Source: Bacteroidaceae bacterium
GTDB lineage: Bacteria; Bacteroidota; Bacteroidia; Bacteroidales; Bacteroidaceae
Direction: 5' to 3'
Assembly: GCA_017517605.1 (NCBI GenBank)
Contig: JAFWYQ010000030.1
Coordinates: 26,015-90,014, forward strand
DNA length: 64,000 bases
Part shown: positions 13,216 through 32,139 of the stretch, one piece after another
Numbering within the stretch: the stretch's first letter is position 1
Layout of the letters: each line of letters opens with the position of its first letter
Notes under the pieces: generated by a model
Seen by the model: only the letters and a program-made list of their open reading frames with translations
Database searches by the model: none
What the model was told of the DNA's origin: nothing
Position numbers and translations under genes: made by a program

Positions 13216-13428
13216 TTAAACTTTTTGCTTAGCATAGTTTATTTTTTGCTACGGCCAAACTGATTTTTCTGTGCAGTATATAGGGTTTTTCCCTTAAGAT
13301 TTATCCAATAGCCCCATAAAGCATTCTGGCAAAGCCTATTATCTTTATAGAAACTATAGTTCCTATAGAATCTATAGCGCCATAGATTCTTAACGAATCT
13401 TAAAAATATTTCATCTACTATTAAAATA

Positions 13429-13460
13429 GTTGCAGAATATTTGGGCATCATTTACCTTTG
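13429..13460 (+). promoter_or_regulatory. Promoter of the blaI locus
   Basis: GTTG (13429-13432), a 20-nt spacer, then TACCTTTG (13453-13460). Transcription from here gives a leader of about 120 nt made largely of repeat words. Confidence 0.7.
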
Positions 13461-13483
13461 CCGCAGAATCAGTGAAGAACTAC

Positions 13484-13580
13484 AAGTGACGAGTGACGAG
13501 CTACGAGCTACAAGCTACGAGTGGAATGTTCGATACCGCATCCTTCCTTGTCAACTTGTCAACTCGTCAACTTAAAAACT
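13484..13580 (+). repeat. Repeat-word leader of blaI (family D)
   Basis: Direct words GTGACGAG, CTACGAG and CTACAAG (13484-13520), then GTCAACTTGTCAACTCGTCAACTT. It lies between the promoter and the blaI ATG. The same words recur at 32382-32430 and 46150-46232, and once inside the M56 gene near 16288. Confidence 0.6.
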
Positions 13581-13975: not shown

Positions 13976-14054
13976 AAGAGAGTGAAGAACGAAGAGTGAA
14001 GAACGAAGAGTGAAGAATCATATAGGAAATAAACCACCTAAACATATCAGAAAC

Positions 14055-15134: not shown

Positions 15135-15213
15135 CCGTAGGGGCGGACCTATGTGTCCGCCCAAAGATGCAGAGCATTGATATTCGGGCAGACACATAGG
15201 TCTGCCCCTACGG
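15135..15213. repeat. Palindromic element, family A, copy 2
   Basis: Two back-to-back hairpins: the left arm is GGGCGGAC/GTCCGCCC and the right arm is GGGCAGAC/GTCTGCCC, with complementary loops CTATGT and ACATAG. It lies 39 bp before the M56 gene, so it is probably transcribed in its leader. Confidence 0.8.
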
Positions 15214-15251: not shown

Positions 15252-18200
15252 ATGGAAGCCTTATATTCAATTCTCCCCATAGCAGGGCGTTTCGTACTGG
15301 CATCGGCCCTGCTGATGGCCCTCTACTGGGTCGTGTGGCGCAAGCAAGCCACCTATCGCGCCAAGCGCATGTATCTGCTCACCATGCCCACTGTAGCAAT
15401 CATCATATCCCTGCTGCAAGTGGAGGTGTACAAGCCCGAGCCAATCGTTGTAGAAGTTACAAGCAACGAACTGCAGGCTGCGAGTGAATCCCTCACTTAC
15501 AGTCCCCTCCACGACCTTTTCCCAAGGGAAGGAGTGAATAGTGCCGAACCGCTCACCGCTTCGTCAGAAGCCAAAACCATGCATACGGAAAGTGCCACAT
15601 ACGCAGCCGGTTCAGACACTTCACTCCCTTCCCACGAGGAGGACACGGAATGGGGCCTCACCCTCACAGGTATCGCCTATACCTTAATTATATTGGCACT
15701 GTTCACCCCCTTTGCCTTCAGTCTGTACCAAGTGCGCCGTCTGCGCAGGGAGGTGAGCGTGCGCAAGGACGACAACGAGCACGACATCCACGTCCTGATG
15801 GGTAGCGTGGTGAAGGCCCCCTTCTCGTTCTACCGCACCATCTTCATGCCGTTGGCCCTGACCGAGGCGCAACGCCGCATGATTATGGAACACGAACGGG
15901 CACACATCCTGCACCGCCACTACATCGACGTGTGGGTGAGCGAGACGGTGACCCGCCTCCTGTGGTGGAACCCCTTCCTGTGGTGGGCACGCGCGGAATT
16001 GCGCAACGTGCACGAGTTTGAGGCCGACAGCGAAGTGCTGGCCACGGGCGAGGATGTATTGGCCTACCAGACCATCCTTATCGAAGAGGTGCTGCACGGC
16101 GATGTCATCATAGCCAACGGCTTCAACCACTCCTTCATCCGCCGCCGCTTTGTGGAGATGCTGCAAACCTCCAACCGCCGCATGACCACCTGGGCCAAGG
16201 CCGGCACGACGGCATGGTTACTCCTCACCGCCGCCCTGATGTGCTGCACCGTGGGCGAAGCGGAGACAGTATATAAAGTGAAGAGTGACGAGCTACAAGT
16301 GACTATTGACGGAGCTTTCAACACGGGAGAAAAGGTTGTCCGCTTTAATCACCGATATGTAGTTGAAAAAGATTTGGACAAGAGAGACTCACTCATGTGG
16401 GCACACGCTTATTCCATCCCGGCTGACTTTAATATAAGCATCGGCATGAAGTCGAAAGAAGAACAGAAATTGTTTGAGAGATTCATGATGATCTGGAGTA
16501 TCATTGTTGACCACAATGGACTGTTGGAAAGAGGCGAGATTCCCACACACGAAAGTCTGACAGAAGAGGAGGAGAGAAACGGTATAGTAAAGGCTAAAGA
16601 ACTTTATCGTGAAAAGTTAATGCAAACGCTTTCTCAAATAGATGCTCCTCTGCACGATACATTAAACCTGTTCTTAGAAAAGTTCGGACTGGACTTTGTA
16701 CTGCCAAAAGGAAAAGATTTCCGTGTACGATACAAAACTCACAATGGAGAACCTGCATTCTTTACAAAATCCGAGCAAAAGAAAGAAACAGTTCCTGCAG
16801 ACAGCGGCCAATGGCATCAAGCAAAAGTCATAAATCCAAGAGACTACTTACCCGAAGTGCTCTCCCAAATAGACAATTTGAATGCGGATGCAGTGGTACA
16901 ATTACTGAGCACCGCGGCTTCTGTGCAGGAATTGACTCCCGAACAATACGAAGAATTGAAGAAAACAATGCCCAACAAGAACCTTCCTTCTTTGGACAGT
17001 ATCAACAGCAACGCACGTGAAATAAAGAAGGCTATAGAAACAATAATGCTTGAAGGAATGACAGGAATGCAAACGGCCATCGCCAACTCCATTCGAGAAG
17101 CAGCTCTAAAGCCCGGTGAGGTGGTGGATGTTCCAATGACAACCTTTGAAGAGTCATTTGACACCACATTTACCGTTACCGTGGAAGCGCCATGGACCGA
17201 GGAGGTTGTCATTGACAATTCCTTCGAAGCACAAAACAAGGCGCTGCTGCGTTTCATAGCCAACTGGTTCGAGTTGAGCGAAAACGGTGTATTCCTTCCG
17301 AAGTCAGAGTATGAAAAAAAGAACATAGACATGGAGGAATACCCCTCCTACGAAGAGTATAGCAAGAATTGGAATACAAATATAGTTTTGGAGACACAGT
17401 TATTGTCACGTTATCTCAATAAGCTGAACAGCGAACTCCGCCCCCAAGTGGAAGCACTGCTCAAAGAACATGGTTGGATTATTCCGCGTGAGAAAGACCT
17501 CTACATAACCATCAGGTCCGACGCTTTCAACAAGACATGGACGTTCAAGAAGAGGCCCAGAAGCTCGGGCATAACGGTCGGTCCTCTCACGGAACAAGAG
17601 ATTTTACGGATGAAGGAGGATGCTGCATCAAAAATAAATAAGCAACTCTTCATGTGTTTCATATCATGGGGACTCTACTACTCTCCCAATATATCAGGGG
17701 TTAGCGATGACGAGTACAAAATCGCCAAGAAAATTCAACCAGACCTGCCAAAAGCATCTGAGGTAAATCAAAGCAAAGAACTCACGTGGACGGTGAAGCA
17801 ACTCTACATCGAACACCTTTTGAAGGACGTAAACGAGGGAGTAGCCAATCAAGTAAGGAATGCCATCAAGAAATACAGTACTGATGACTACTTGGGAAAA
17901 GAACTGTACTTCACCATCGACCTTGGCACACATGAAATACATGTCAAAAAGGAAAAAGGAAAAGAGTTAACGAGCCAGTTTTTATGGGAAAAGGGGAAAC
18001 CGCTTCCCGAAGGGTTCCTGCCATCAGAGAAAGACAAGGCTGCAACCAACACCTCAGCAAACGAACCAGCCATCACCAACGACGCTTCGCTGAGAGAGCA
18101 GGACGAAGCATTGCAAGCGTTCTTCAGAGGTTGGTTCGACATGAACAAGAGCTCACAGGAGCCCATGTTGACAGAAGAAGAATTTCAGCAAGCAATCAAG

Positions 18201-19388
18201 ACCGAACCCATTCCTCCCGGTTTCGACCCCTCATACAAGGCATACAAAGAGAGAACAAAGAACTTTATAGCGGAAGCAAAGAAGAAAATGGAGGAGGGCC
18301 ATGCACGTCTGAACAAAGAAATCCGTCCCCAAGTGGAGGCCGTACTCAAACAGCACGGAATGAAGTTCCCACCTGAACGCCAACTGAAGATCATCATAAG
18401 GGCTGCCTACAAGAACGCCACCTGGGAGTTTGAGAACACTACCCACCCCAATGCTTACGGCTGTGCAGTAAACAAAAACTTCTTGATTGTCGATGACCCG
18501 TCGTCACCCGACTACAATGAGAAAAAGGACTTCATCTCTCCCCAATGGGGCTTGGAGCTTCCCGAAGGATACGTCCGCCTGACCGACTATAAGAAGTTGG
18601 CCGAAACGGATGCTACGGCCAAAGCACAGTACAACCAACTGATGAGTTGCTTCCGCAATGCCCAAGCCTTGCGCAAAGAAGCGCTGACAAATGCCTACAA
18701 AGAGAAGCATCCCCGCTATGTTTCGGTAGAAGAAGCCACCATGGCAGGAATCAAGAAACTGTTCCGCAATGCCGGCATCGAGATGTTGGAGAAGGGAGCC
18801 TACCGACTGCCCGATGGCACCATCGTGATGGAGGATGACCAGCACAATCTGGTCCCACAAAGCGTGGACTACCAACAGGGGACTACCGACAGAGACCCAC
18901 GCCTATGCAACAAGGCTCCCCGCATGGAGCGCGACAAGTCGCCCAACTACAGTCCCTTCAACGAACAGACGTGGCCCGTATATACCAACGTGCAGACTAT
19001 CGATTTGGAAACGTATAACAACCAGCCACAGGTGTTCCGCGGCAAGGACTGCACCTACGTGGTGGAACACTTCCCAATAACCTACGACCTCCATTGGTTC
19101 TACACCAGCACGCAAGACAAGTTGGTTGACACCAAAACGGGCGACCAGTACATGAAACGTTATACGGAGCACCTCCACATGAACAACTATATGTGGATTC
19201 ACGGCATGGAGGGAAAAGTCATCCGCTTGATTAGCATCTACCCTCCCCTACCCAAGAACGTCACCTCAGTGGATTTCATCCCCAGCCGCATTCCTGACGA
19301 AATACGCCTGAGCAATGCAGCACCCCTAAAAGAATACAAGAAACTGAAGGTGCAAGAACTTGAGCAAATGGAGAAGGTGGTGTATTGA
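15252..19388 (+). CDS. BlaR1-like M56 protease with giant repeated sensor region
   Basis: A 1378-aa membrane metalloprotease; BlaR1/MecR1 are about 600 aa. Transmembrane helices lie at about 8-27, 36-54, 136-160 and 316-336. The M56 zinc site is HERAH at 214-218 with HEFEAD at 254-259. After the last helix come at least four degenerate copies of a module of about 105 aa (about 402-503, 659-766, 792-901, 950-1063), marked by FxxxW, a (L/R)xQVxxxLKxHG-like helix and a final strand with W-F/W-E-F. A possible fifth lies at about 590-655. Residues 1091-1378 repeat the secreted protein encoded upstream. It probably senses an extracytoplasmic signal and releases BlaI; the signal is unknown. ATG 15252 starts just before the first helix. 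Confidence 0.85.
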   Translation: MEALYSILPIAGRFVLASALLMALYWVVWRKQATYRAKRMYLLTMPTVAIIISLLQVEVYKPEPIVVEVTSNELQAASESLTYSPLHDLFPREGVNSAEPLTASSEAKTMHTESATYAAGSDTSLPSHEEDTEWGLTLTGIAYTLIILALFTPFAFSLYQVRRLRREVSVRKDDNEHDIHVLMGSVVKAPFSFYRTIFMPLALTEAQRRMIMEHERAHILHRHYIDVWVSETVTRLLWWNPFLWWARAELRNVHEFEADSEVLATGEDVLAYQTILIEEVLHGDVIIANGFNHSFIRRRFVEMLQTSNRRMTTWAKAGTTAWLLLTAALMCCTVGEAETVYKVKSDELQVTIDGAFNTGEKVVRFNHRYVVEKDLDKRDSLMWAHAYSIPADFNISIGMKSKEEQKLFERFMMIWSIIVDHNGLLERGEIPTHESLTEEEERNGIVKAKELYREKLMQTLSQIDAPLHDTLNLFLEKFGLDFVLPKGKDFRVRYKTHNGEPAFFTKSEQKKETVPADSGQWHQAKVINPRDYLPEVLSQIDNLNADAVVQLLSTAASVQELTPEQYEELKKTMPNKNLPSLDSINSNAREIKKAIETIMLEGMTGMQTAIANSIREAALKPGEVVDVPMTTFEESFDTTFTVTVEAPWTEEVVIDNSFEAQNKALLRFIANWFELSENGVFLPKSEYEKKNIDMEEYPSYEEYSKNWNTNIVLETQLLSRYLNKLNSELRPQVEALLKEHGWIIPREKDLYITIRSDAFNKTWTFKKRPRSSGITVGPLTEQEILRMKEDAASKINKQLFMCFISWGLYYSPNISGVSDDEYKIAKKIQPDLPKASEVNQSKELTWTVKQLYIEHLLKDVNEGVANQVRNAIKKYSTDDYLGKELYFTIDLGTHEIHVKKEKGKELTSQFLWEKGKPLPEGFLPSEKDKAATNTSANEPAITNDASLREQDEALQAFFRGWFDMNKSSQEPMLTEEEFQQAIKTEPIPPGFDPSYKAYKERTKNFIAEAKKKMEEGHARLNKEIRPQVEAVLKQHGMKFPPERQLKIIIRAAYKNATWEFENTTHPNAYGCAVNKNFLIVDDPSSPDYNEKKDFISPQWGLELPEGYVRLTDYKKLAETDATAKAQYNQLMSCFRNAQALRKEALTNAYKEKHPRYVSVEEATMAGIKKLFRNAGIEMLEKGAYRLPDGTIVMEDDQHNLVPQSVDYQQGTTDRDPRLCNKAPRMERDKSPNYSPFNEQTWPVYTNVQTIDLETYNNQPQVFRGKDCTYVVEHFPITYDLHWFYTSTQDKLVDTKTGDQYMKRYTEHLHMNNYMWIHGMEGKVIRLISIYPPLPKNVTSVDFIPSRIPDEIRLSNAAPLKEYKKLKVQELEQMEKVVY

Positions 19389-19415
19389 ACCATGCCACAA
19401 CGACACTCATTTTGA

Positions 19416-19456
19416 CAAAAGGGCATAAGGACAAAATCTTATGCCCTTTTGTTTTT
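19416..19456 (+). terminator. Terminator of the blaI-M56 locus
   Basis: A perfect 14-bp stem (19416-19429 with 19438-19451), an 8-nt loop, then TTTTTAT. Confidence 0.9.
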
Positions 19457-19554: not shown

Positions 19555-19776
19555 ATGAAATCGCCCAAACCATACCAATTCGACCCAATGGATACACTGA
19601 TAGCCAGTGAACCAGCCCCCCCGATATACGGAGCAAAAAATAACACAAAAAGTAACCAGCATCCCCCCACTTCATACGAGATGGAAGTTCTAAGACGTTC
19701 GGAAGAAGACATAAAGGCTGGACGCGTTTATACGCAAGAAGAGGTTGATATAAAGGTTAAGCAATGGTTAGATTGA
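19555..19776 (+). CDS. Antitoxin of a ParE/RelE-type pair
   Basis: A 73-aa protein with a disordered Pro/Ser-rich N terminus and a C-terminal helical segment ending SEEDIKAGRVYTQEEVD...WLD. This tail is typical of antitoxins that precede RelE/ParE toxins in Bacteroidetes. The stop overlaps the toxin start by 13 bp, so the two are translationally coupled. There is no obvious HTH in this short protein. The assignment leans on the tail and the toxin beside it. Confidence 0.75.
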   Translation: MKSPKPYQFDPMDTLIASEPAPPIYGAKNNTKSNQHPPTSYEMEVLRRSEEDIKAGRVYTQEEVDIKVKQWLD

Positions 19777-20069
19777 AACTACGCTGGACTGAAACTGCTT
19801 TGGCCGAGTTCGGTAGAATGTTAACATATTACAACGTAAGAAACGGAAATAGCAAGTACAGTCGTACTATTGTGAGGATGGTCAACGATTCACTGAAATT
19901 GGTTACTAAATTTCCCCAAATGTACCGTTTAGTTGATGCAGAGGAAATACAAGACATCCGGATGTTCCACTGCGAATATTTCTCCATTTATTATCGTATC
20001 AAGGATTCAGAGATTCTTGTTGAAGCAGTCTTTGACACACGACGAAATCCAGAGGATTCTCCTTATTGA
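19764..20069 (+). CDS. ParE/RelE-family toxin
   Basis: A 101-aa basic protein of the RelE/ParE fold: an N-terminal strand (KLRWTETALAEFGRM), two helices, and C-terminal strands ending IRMFHCEYFSIYYRI...EAVFDTRRNPE, where the FDTRRNP tail is the family hallmark. RelE members cut mRNA on the ribosome and ParE members poison gyrase; the sequence does not settle which. The reading frame is intact. The 3' end overlaps the convergent 5-FCL gene by 7 bp. Confidence 0.85.
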   Translation: MVRLKLRWTETALAEFGRMLTYYNVRNGNSKYSRTIVRMVNDSLKLVTKFPQMYRLVDAEEIQDIRMFHCEYFSIYYRIKDSEILVEAVFDTRRNPEDSPY

Positions 20070-20614
20070 CCAATCACCTCATCCACTTTTTGGTCGTGCG
20101 GCTCGTGAGGAATCTCCTCATCGAGCAGTTGGAAGGGATAGCAGAGACCAAGTTTATAGGCACGAGTAAGGCGAGGAAGCAGACGGTCGTAGTAGCCTTT
20201 GCCACGTCCCAAGCGGTTGCCCAGCTGGTCGAAGGCCATGCCGGGGATGACGGCAAGGACGATGCGGTCGAAATCGGTAAACGGTTCACCCGAAGGTTCA
20301 AGAATACCGTAACTGCCAAGAGCCAAGCAATCGGGACCGGTATAGCGGTGAAGCACCAAATCGTCGCCCACGACGGTGGGGAGAAGAATCTCTTTCTGCC
20401 CACACCAACGATTGACAAAGGCATGAGTATCAACTTCATCGGGCAGGGAATGATAAAGCAACACTGTATGTGCCTCCACAAAACGCGGATGCTGTTCCAA
20501 CTGCTGAAGCAGGGATAAAGAAAGGGCTTCCAACTCCTCGCGGGAGTAGGAAGCCTTTATCGTTCGGATAGATTGGCGAAGGATGCGCTTCGCACTCAAT
20601 TCTTCACTCTTCAT
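20063..20614 (-). CDS. 5-formyltetrahydrofolate cyclo-ligase
   Basis: A 183-aa enzyme that converts 5-formyl-THF to 5,10-methenyl-THF with ATP, returning a storage folate to use. The family signature GRGKGYYDRLL is in the C-terminal half and a PxVxGDDLVLHRY-like strand precedes it. It is the last gene of the operon DUF4847 - dCMP deaminase - ctpA - 5-FCL, 10 bp after ctpA. Its first codons (MKSEEL) lie in a repeat of the word GTGAAGAATGAA that also covers the ctpA stop. It converges on and overlaps the toxin gene by 7 bp. Confidence 0.9.
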   Translation of the reverse strand: MKSEELSAKRILRQSIRTIKASYSREELEALSLSLLQQLEQHPRFVEAHTVLLYHSLPDEVDTHAFVNRWCGQKEILLPTVVGDDLVLHRYTGPDCLALGSYGILEPSGEPFTDFDRIVLAVIPGMAFDQLGNRLGRGKGYYDRLLPRLTRAYKLGLCYPFQLLDEEIPHEPHDQKVDEVIGQ

Positions 20615-32027: not shown

Positions 32028-32039
32028 CAGCGCAAAAAC

Positions 32040-32135
32040 GGGTAAGTCCTATACGGTCAGCTCCTTTCGAATCCTCCAGGGCCTGACCGCAGCAAAGGTA
32101 GAAGGTTGTAGCGACGCGATATAGTCAGCTTGCCC
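32040..32135 (+). ncRNA. ffs: Small bacterial SRP RNA (4.5S-type)
   Basis: An RNA of about 96 nt that folds into one long hairpin: the 5' GGGTAAG pairs with the 3' CTTGCCC. The apical part has the SRP domain IV pattern CCAGG-CC-loop-CGCAGCAAAGGTAG, where the internal AGCA side is conserved. The tetraloop is TGAC (URRC class), in place of the more usual GGAA. It binds Ffh in the signal recognition particle. tRNA-Thr starts 5 nt after its end, so the two share a transcript. Confidence 0.85.
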
Positions 32136-32139
32136 ACCC

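Follow-up and report, generated by a model that had tools for sequence, protein, structure and literature searches.

What does an M56 membrane protease sense when its outer part is far larger than that of BlaR1? Beta-lactam sensing is what BlaR1-type proteases are best known for. The question is raised by a stretch of 64,000 nucleotides, called the window throughout, from a Bacteroidaceae bacterium (GenBank assembly GCA_017517605.1, contig JAFWYQ010000030.1, positions 26,015 to 90,014), in which the gene of an M56 protease with a very long sensor follows genes for a BlaI-family repressor and a further, partner protein (Table 1). The locus is a genuine and uncommon form of the BlaI/M56 switch, from an M56 lineage of gut and rumen bacteria without a penicillin-binding domain. 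Its interest lies in an interchangeable sensor and in a domain, here called b, that is shared with extracytoplasmic function (ECF) sigma factor systems.

The M56 gene runs from the ATG at 15252 to a stop codon at 19386-19388, which agrees with the coordinates assigned to it by an earlier, sequence-only reading of this DNA. Membership of peptidase family M56 is apparent from the Pfam score and from an intact zinc site, HERAH at residues 214-218 (HExxH) with EFEAD downstream at 255-259 (ExxxD), the motifs given for BlaR1 in PMC9834060. Hydropathy indicates four transmembrane (TM)-like segments (10-28, 41-59, 138-156 and 317-335), which fit an Nout-Cout topology with a C-terminal sensor outside, and the approximately 1040 residues expected past the last helix were recovered as 1043. 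The stop-to-stop frame of 1415 amino acids is the longest among the M56 matches listed for 61 genomes of the family, the next being 1045 and 994. Frames are 904-1188 amino acids long in the other genomes of the genus (congeners) that have the locus, except in G006, where the frame reaches the contig end. Plasmid relatives (six records) match in the protease part only, with identity below 60%.

The proposal that the two genes form a BlaI/M56 pair without a penicillin-binding sensor held up. Both products score over their Pfam cut-offs, the repressor being scanned in a frame with a longer upstream extension, and the adjacent BlaI/MecI-family repressor gene typical of BlaR1/MecR1 systems has orthologues at loci L020, L033-L036 and L032. 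A penicillin-binding or transpeptidase domain, which would have told against the proposal, was not found in the M56 protein by the Pfam scan. The NCBIfam model blaR1_generic gave only 17.1 bits against a cut-off of 400, matching residues 179-266 alone, and the protein does not qualify as BlaR1 by this model. Past the last helix, SxxK occurs once, at residue 507 near the r1/B module boundary; the six SxN and the single K[TS]G (1295) found there are no more than chance would allow. None of the five neighbouring products scanned with Pfam is a beta-lactamase. Beta-lactam sensing was thus rejected on domain content, as judged by Pfam, NCBIfam and motif counts.

Judged from their sequences, five related modules of about 105-125 amino acids probably make up the sensor, in the order r1, B, r2, r3 and r4. 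Four clear copies and a possible fifth had been claimed. The fifth (B) is supported, but only copies 2 and 4 (r2 and r4) are clear; copy 3 is moderate, and copy 1 and the fifth are remote. Pairwise alignment of copies 2 and 4 scored 161 (500 shuffles: mean 30.4, SD 5.5, maximum 60), whereas the other five pairs stayed below their shuffle maxima, given in brackets: 1-2 49 (57), 1-3 46 (53), 2-3 53 (57), 1-4 33 (55) and 3-4 27 (56). Profile-profile comparison with hhalign gave probabilities of 99.2% for copies 2 and 4, 41.7% for copies 2 and 3, 73.1% for copy 3 with the module of G009, and 10.5% for copies 1 and 2; the comparisons B9-r9 and r9-link, which involve overlapping sequence, were left aside. 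A repeat finder had been expected to return at least four units. With family models built without the group being tested, copy 3 (15.0-22.0 bits in three sequences), copy 1 (8.8-9.3 bits in two) and the fifth segment, residues 506-630 (8.4-16.6 bits in four), all exceeded 1625 control segments of real proteins, the best of which reached 5.3-8.0 bits. Shuffling (300 per group) agreed with these controls on all three. A candidate fifth copy in G009 at 505-612 failed, with 1.7 bits against a shuffle maximum of 6.7. The linker that follows the modules reached 7.4 bits in the window, higher than all 1625 controls, but it is the only one of six linkers to do so; its five relatives scored 1.5-4.7 bits, with 2-45 of the controls as high. 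It was not counted as a sixth module, although it is possibly a degenerate one.

Structure prediction was informative only locally. The first model (1034 amino acids, four alignment rows) had a mean predicted local distance difference test (pLDDT) score of 40.0 and a predicted template modelling (pTM) score of 0.23. The second (454 amino acids, ten rows; within the modules, its alignment A7 wrongly places small ends of the two b2 rows) reached 54.6 and 0.33. In the latter, copy 4 (pLDDT blocks of 64-85) is predicted to form helices at model residues 23-45, 51-60, 71-94 and 101-111, and then strands at 122-127 and 132-137. For the linker the model gives helices followed by a hairpin (blocks of 62-92), in a stretch without aligned relatives. 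For copies 1, 3 and B, neither prediction gave a usable model. Foldseek returned 110 matches in the PDB at E ≤ 10 and none at E ≤ 0.001, and searches of Pfam, NCBIfam, PADLOC and PDB sequences gave no family over cut-off or otherwise convincing for module or b domain. Matches to BLM_N (E 0.0076), MAD (E 0.0072), AbiEi (E 0.0057) and Glyco_hydro_68 (best E 0.0022, two of nine members) were discounted as chance.

The module set differs between genomes at the same locus: r1-B-r2-r3-r4 in the window, r2-r3-r4 in G007, B-r2-r4 in G002, r1-B in G004, r2-r3-r4 followed by a frame break in G008, and B with one r module and a doubtful stretch in G009; G006 has none before its contig ends. The interrupted frame of G008 (L007, L032) has a stop within the match, and its open reading frame (ORF) ends past r4. 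Third codon positions of the M56 core are 60-62% identical between the window and G002, G004, G007 and G008 (51% with G009), and those of blaI are 58-65% identical to congeners. Single modules depart from this, each toward another species: r3 98% and r2 87% with G007, B 95% with G002, r4 93% with G008 and r1 83% with G004. Fisher tests against the core, computed from rounded percentages, gave p = 8.9e-19 for r3, 4.1e-15 for B, 4.8e-13 for r4 with G008, 3.9e-08 for r2 and 3.9e-05 for r1. Compared with other species, the window modules share 38-58% in four cases; in two more, r4 with G002 and r4 with G007, the values are 71-73% and marginal against the core (p 0.040 and 0.022, respectively); B with G004 is lower than the core (p 8.3e-06). 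DNA identity shifts near the module edges in a lenient global alignment, in which only high stretches are informative because different modules pair at a background of 58-75%. Since single modules are near-identical to those of different species while the core is not, the sequences suggest that modules seem to be exchanged between sister species in a cassette-like manner. The modules are not alone in showing exchange or uneven divergence, since RecF also departs with G008 (81%, p = 1.1e-09).

Six congeners, G001 and G010-G014, have no comparable M56 locus, and in them dciA is directly followed by the gene found at 20063-20614 in the window, which we take to be MTHFS, with its neighbour presumably an S41 gene. 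Such an empty site (L197-L202) suggests that the operon was inserted at this position or lost from it. In G005 another reading frame comes after dciA, and for G003 no match to dciA was obtained.

The b domain has a wider distribution than the modules. No Pfam or NCBIfam family over cut-off was found for it in the proteins scanned, and its profile matches 88 of 251 sampled genomes of the family, in 15 of 30 genera (E ≤ 0.001), and 7 of 295 genomes drawn from the order at E ≤ 1e-8. Two types, b1 and b2, were assigned by gene position, and leave-one-out scoring agreed in 30 of 30 cases (14 b1, 16 b2). In other genera, the seven M56-borne domains scored in this way favour b1 and the nine separate proteins b2. 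The models include LP3 and LP8, proteins of sigma operons from the window's genus, but not the window proteins. Gene context was surveyed at 55 loci of other genera, taken from the matches listed, strongest first with some weaker ones; the ECF, anti-sigma, BlaI and M56 models used were built partly from these loci, and sigma-70 domains were checked with Pfam in two. Of 32 b1-b2 proteins (one being b1-b2-b2), 28 have an ECF sigma or anti-sigma match within four ORFs on the same strand and four do not. Nine M56-b1 proteins were found, eight with an adjoining b2 protein. The ORF picker discards the shorter of frames that overlap and thereby missed b2 frames, at least two (G094:C11:46607-47059 in L101; G080:C58:8607-9092 in L086), and at the ninth locus a dropped b2 frame is present among the profile matches. 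The 22 b2-only proteins below 450 amino acids lie beside M56/BlaI (8), ECF/anti-sigma (6) or neither (8), and both b1-only proteins without M56 stand beside ECF genes. L110 has an M56 (338 amino acids), BlaI, a b1-b2 protein, an anti-sigma factor and an ECF sigma factor on one strand. Large proteins of 663-713 amino acids with a b2-like stretch occur at L097, L126 and L136, two in neither context and one near ECF. The window's own genus has three more b1-b2 proteins (L037, L038, L039) beside anti-sigma and ECF matches.

In the window, the C-terminus of the M56 protein and the partner protein are both b2: the b2 model gave 125.1 and 115.6 bits, respectively, and the b1 model 41.6 and 31.6. M56 residues 1092-1378 are in effect a copy of the partner protein, with 49% identity. 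The arrangement is the same in G009, with a separate b2 protein preceding an M56 that ends in b2. G006 has a separate b2 protein, and its M56 leads straight into the linker before the contig ends. The M56 proteins of G002, G004 and G007 have b1-b2 at their end, and a separate partner is absent both between BlaI and M56 and from the rest of the stretch examined, which in G007 ends soon after M56 with the contig. These fusions in three congeners suggest that the secreted protein and the protease work together, as partners.

A candidate control region lies upstream of blaI. The palindrome ACTATTnnAATAGT is kept in six of seven aligned loci, having diverged in G006, and its copy at 13417 is the sole exact one in the window's genome. 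The putative promoter element at 13453-13460 matches the Bacteroidetes -7 consensus, TAnnTTTG. The exact palindrome with one more T, searched in 15 genomes of the genus, was present in seven, with a single match, at the locus, in G000, G002, G004, G007 and G009, two in G008 (one at the locus) and one in G006 on another contig; eight genomes had none. A gene 3' of M56 on the same strand in G002 and G004 (L033:7833-10328, L035:4166-6679) matches MG2 (macroglobulin), over cut-off in G002 and below it in G004; it is not present after the window's M56 gene and might be a further regulatory target in those two genomes.

With modest confidence, we read the locus as a BlaI/M56 switch that controls mainly its own operon and carries an interchangeable modular sensor. 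The three genes would be co-transcribed as one operon encoding a BlaR1-type switch, with the repressor bound at the 13417 palindrome and blocking its own promoter. The zinc site of the protease would face the cytosol and the sensor the periplasm. An engaged sensor would let the protease cleave the repressor, so that the operon is expressed, and with it the secreted b2 protein and the receptor itself. The b-type domain may be the conserved extracytoplasmic element, acting with the secreted b2 protein that is separate here and fused to M56 in some relatives. The helical modules, about five, may form an interchangeable extension and determine what the receptor senses or how far outward it reaches. 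Several results weigh against this reading. The reversed control pattern gave 10 matches (in four genomes) compared with 8 for the true one (6 at the locus), so single matches off the locus mean little and only the conserved position counts; with one mismatch allowed, 13 sites stood against 14 control sites, which speaks neither for nor against further operators. The palindrome was not seen in five blaI upstream regions of other genera. The window's M56 bears b2 instead of b1, which departs from the strict b1-b2 pairing seen in other genera, and the b domain, with pLDDT blocks of 27-42, has no usable model.

A bolder version, which we hold only tentatively, is that the sensor trades modules between species as polymorphic recognition systems do and is coupled to a b1/b2 unit serving two unrelated relays, M56/BlaI and ECF sigma/anti-sigma, with the modules setting a variable ligand such as a competitor protein, a glycan or an envelope component. 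The modules had been taken for a sensor of another, perhaps multivalent, ligand; the lack of a penicillin-binding sensor is supported, but the comparison rather shows a variable, exchangeable insert next to a b domain common to other genera. The modules may instead be a mere stalk, a length-variable spacer on which the b domain is held out through periplasm or peptidoglycan and whose sequence and exchange are neutral. This is a doubtful but serious possibility, given that one and the same locus varies in how many modules it has and of which kind, and that the r2/r4 profile has no convincing match to any known family and occurs in 5 of 399 sampled genomes of the family, all of the window's genus. 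On the other hand, four of the five best-matching exchanged copies are 90-96% identical in protein and the r2, r4 and G009 modules have 16 invariant columns in common, which is more than a spacer seems to need. It is unlikely that the modules vary to escape outside agents (phage, bacteriocin, predator or host) while the b domain alone senses. The mosaic exchange with its shifts near module edges would suit such escape, as would the loop at residues 60-137, the other predicted extracytoplasmic stretch, which is hypervariable (21-34% identity to six orthologues, compared with 62-78% for residues 161-316). However, TM3 (138-160) is also poorly kept (35-45%), which means that parts other than the outside ones change fast as well. 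Escape would also require the protein to reach the cell surface, whereas a receptor of the inner membrane is as a rule out of reach of such agents.

No relative was found in the viral contigs and phage records searched, a result that bears on shared sequence only; it counts against escape from phage, and a phage or virus origin was rejected on the same search. That the mosaic is an assembly artefact, with metagenome-assembled genomes misjoined at repeated modules, is very improbable. The assembly of the window's genome reaches 80.5% completeness in 134 contigs, and two ectodomain relatives are metagenome-assembled genomes, from sheep rectum and goat cecum. Against misjoining, even the clearest copies inside one protein agree at only about a third of their residues, so that an assembler would hardly mix them up, and the best-matching modules, compared between genomes, differ in 2-15% of their DNA and do not stem from the same reads. 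In addition, the frame is open across 1378 codons and different combinations occur in several genomes. Least probable of all is a true beta-lactam sensor with an unrecognised binding domain, for which the BlaI/M56 gene pair speaks and to which the domain, model and motif results given above are opposed.

The switch resembles BlaR1-BlaI and MecR1-MecI of Staphylococcus and Bacillus licheniformis in its BlaI-type repressor beside an M56 protease with HExxH, ExxxD and a C-terminal outside domain, and its four TM-like segments, placed by hydropathy, would fit the Nout-Cout topology; BlaR1 is described as cleaving BlaI directly and as an Nout-Cout domain-swapped dimer, with about 250 residues (332-585) past the last TM segment in S. 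aureus (PMC9834060). It differs in having about 1040 residues past that segment, five modules and a b domain, a secreted partner, a hypervariable TM2-TM3 loop and the upstream palindrome, and in lacking a penicillin-binding domain. Closer are the BlaI-M56-b1 + b2 operons of other Bacteroidaceae, mostly with BlaI in front, for which we found no published name. Their M56-b1 proteins (497-635 amino acids) also have a C-terminal b domain and an adjoining b2 protein, but the domain is b1, the partner follows M56 instead of preceding it, and several partners look lipoprotein-like by eye. The r2/r4-type module was not found in them or elsewhere outside the window's genus among the sampled genomes. 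The ECF operons have the same b1-b2 pair in a secreted-looking protein, and their output would be release of a sigma factor, compared with repressor cleavage in BlaI/M56. Polymorphic toxin systems likewise diversify by recombination with cassettes (PMC3482391), but the parts exchanged here lie midway in a predicted receptor, in which domain scans found no toxin domain. In the open-access literature searched, from which most subscription papers are missing, neither M56 sensors of modular or mosaic build nor the b domain were found described, which is weak evidence of novelty. The locus offers a natural set of module swaps for testing in what way a domain on the outside governs a protease through the membrane, and the b2 partner, free or fused, is a first clue to what M56 receptors other than BlaR1 sense.

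Table 1. Features of the BlaI/M56 locus in window coordinates (aa, amino acids; bits, profile score; 0/1625, number of control segments scoring as high)
Feature	Position	Strand	Remarks
Palindrome ACTATT-AA-AATAGT	13417..13430	.	likely BlaI operator of the operon (predicted); overlaps likely promoter
TACCTTTG	13453..13460	+	matches Bacteroidetes -7 element; in 6/7 aligned upstream regions, TACATTTG in G006
BlaI-family repressor, 128 aa	13589..13975	+	PF03965 95.1 bits, cut-off 22.6; 84-89% aa identity to five orthologues
Partner protein, 328 aa	14055..15041	+	signal-peptide-like start (by eye), linker, b2 domain
Palindromic interspersed repeat	15135..15213	.	34-nucleotide arms, 88% complementary; between partner and M56 genes
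M56 protease/sensor, 1378 aa	15252..19388	+	PF05569 45.4 bits, cut-off 31
M56 residues 1-335	15252..16256	+	TM-like segments and zinc protease (motif, hydropathy)
Module r1, residues 395-505	16434..16766	+	remote copy; 8.8 bits, 0/1625; 79% aa identity to G004
Module B, residues 506-625	16767..17126	+	remote fifth copy; 16.6 bits, 0/1625; 91% aa identity to G002
Module r2, residues 655-778	17214..17585	+	clear copy; 90% aa identity to G007
Module r3, residues 785-905	17604..17966	+	moderate copy; 16.5 bits with family model, 0/1625
Module r4, residues 945-1070	18084..18461	+	clear copy; four helices and hairpin predicted; 95% aa identity to G008
Linker, residues 1088-1205	18513..18866	+	also in partner protein; possibly degenerate module
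C-terminal b2-type domain of M56	18867..19385	+	
Terminator-like hairpin after M56 gene	19414..19453	+	17-pair stem, T run; 1 found, 0.3 expected from shuffles
SRP (signal recognition particle) RNA	32033-32139		Bacteroidales type

The palindromic interspersed repeat is probably a passenger; its core GGGCnGACACATAGGTCnGCCC has 22 exact matches in the window's genome and none in 14 congeners. Short direct-repeat tracts flank blaI at 13471-13521 and 13981-14024. Past the operon, a gene at 19764-20069 encodes a ParE-family toxin (PF05016, 37.7 bits), and a short frame just 5' of it may, by eye, encode the antitoxin.

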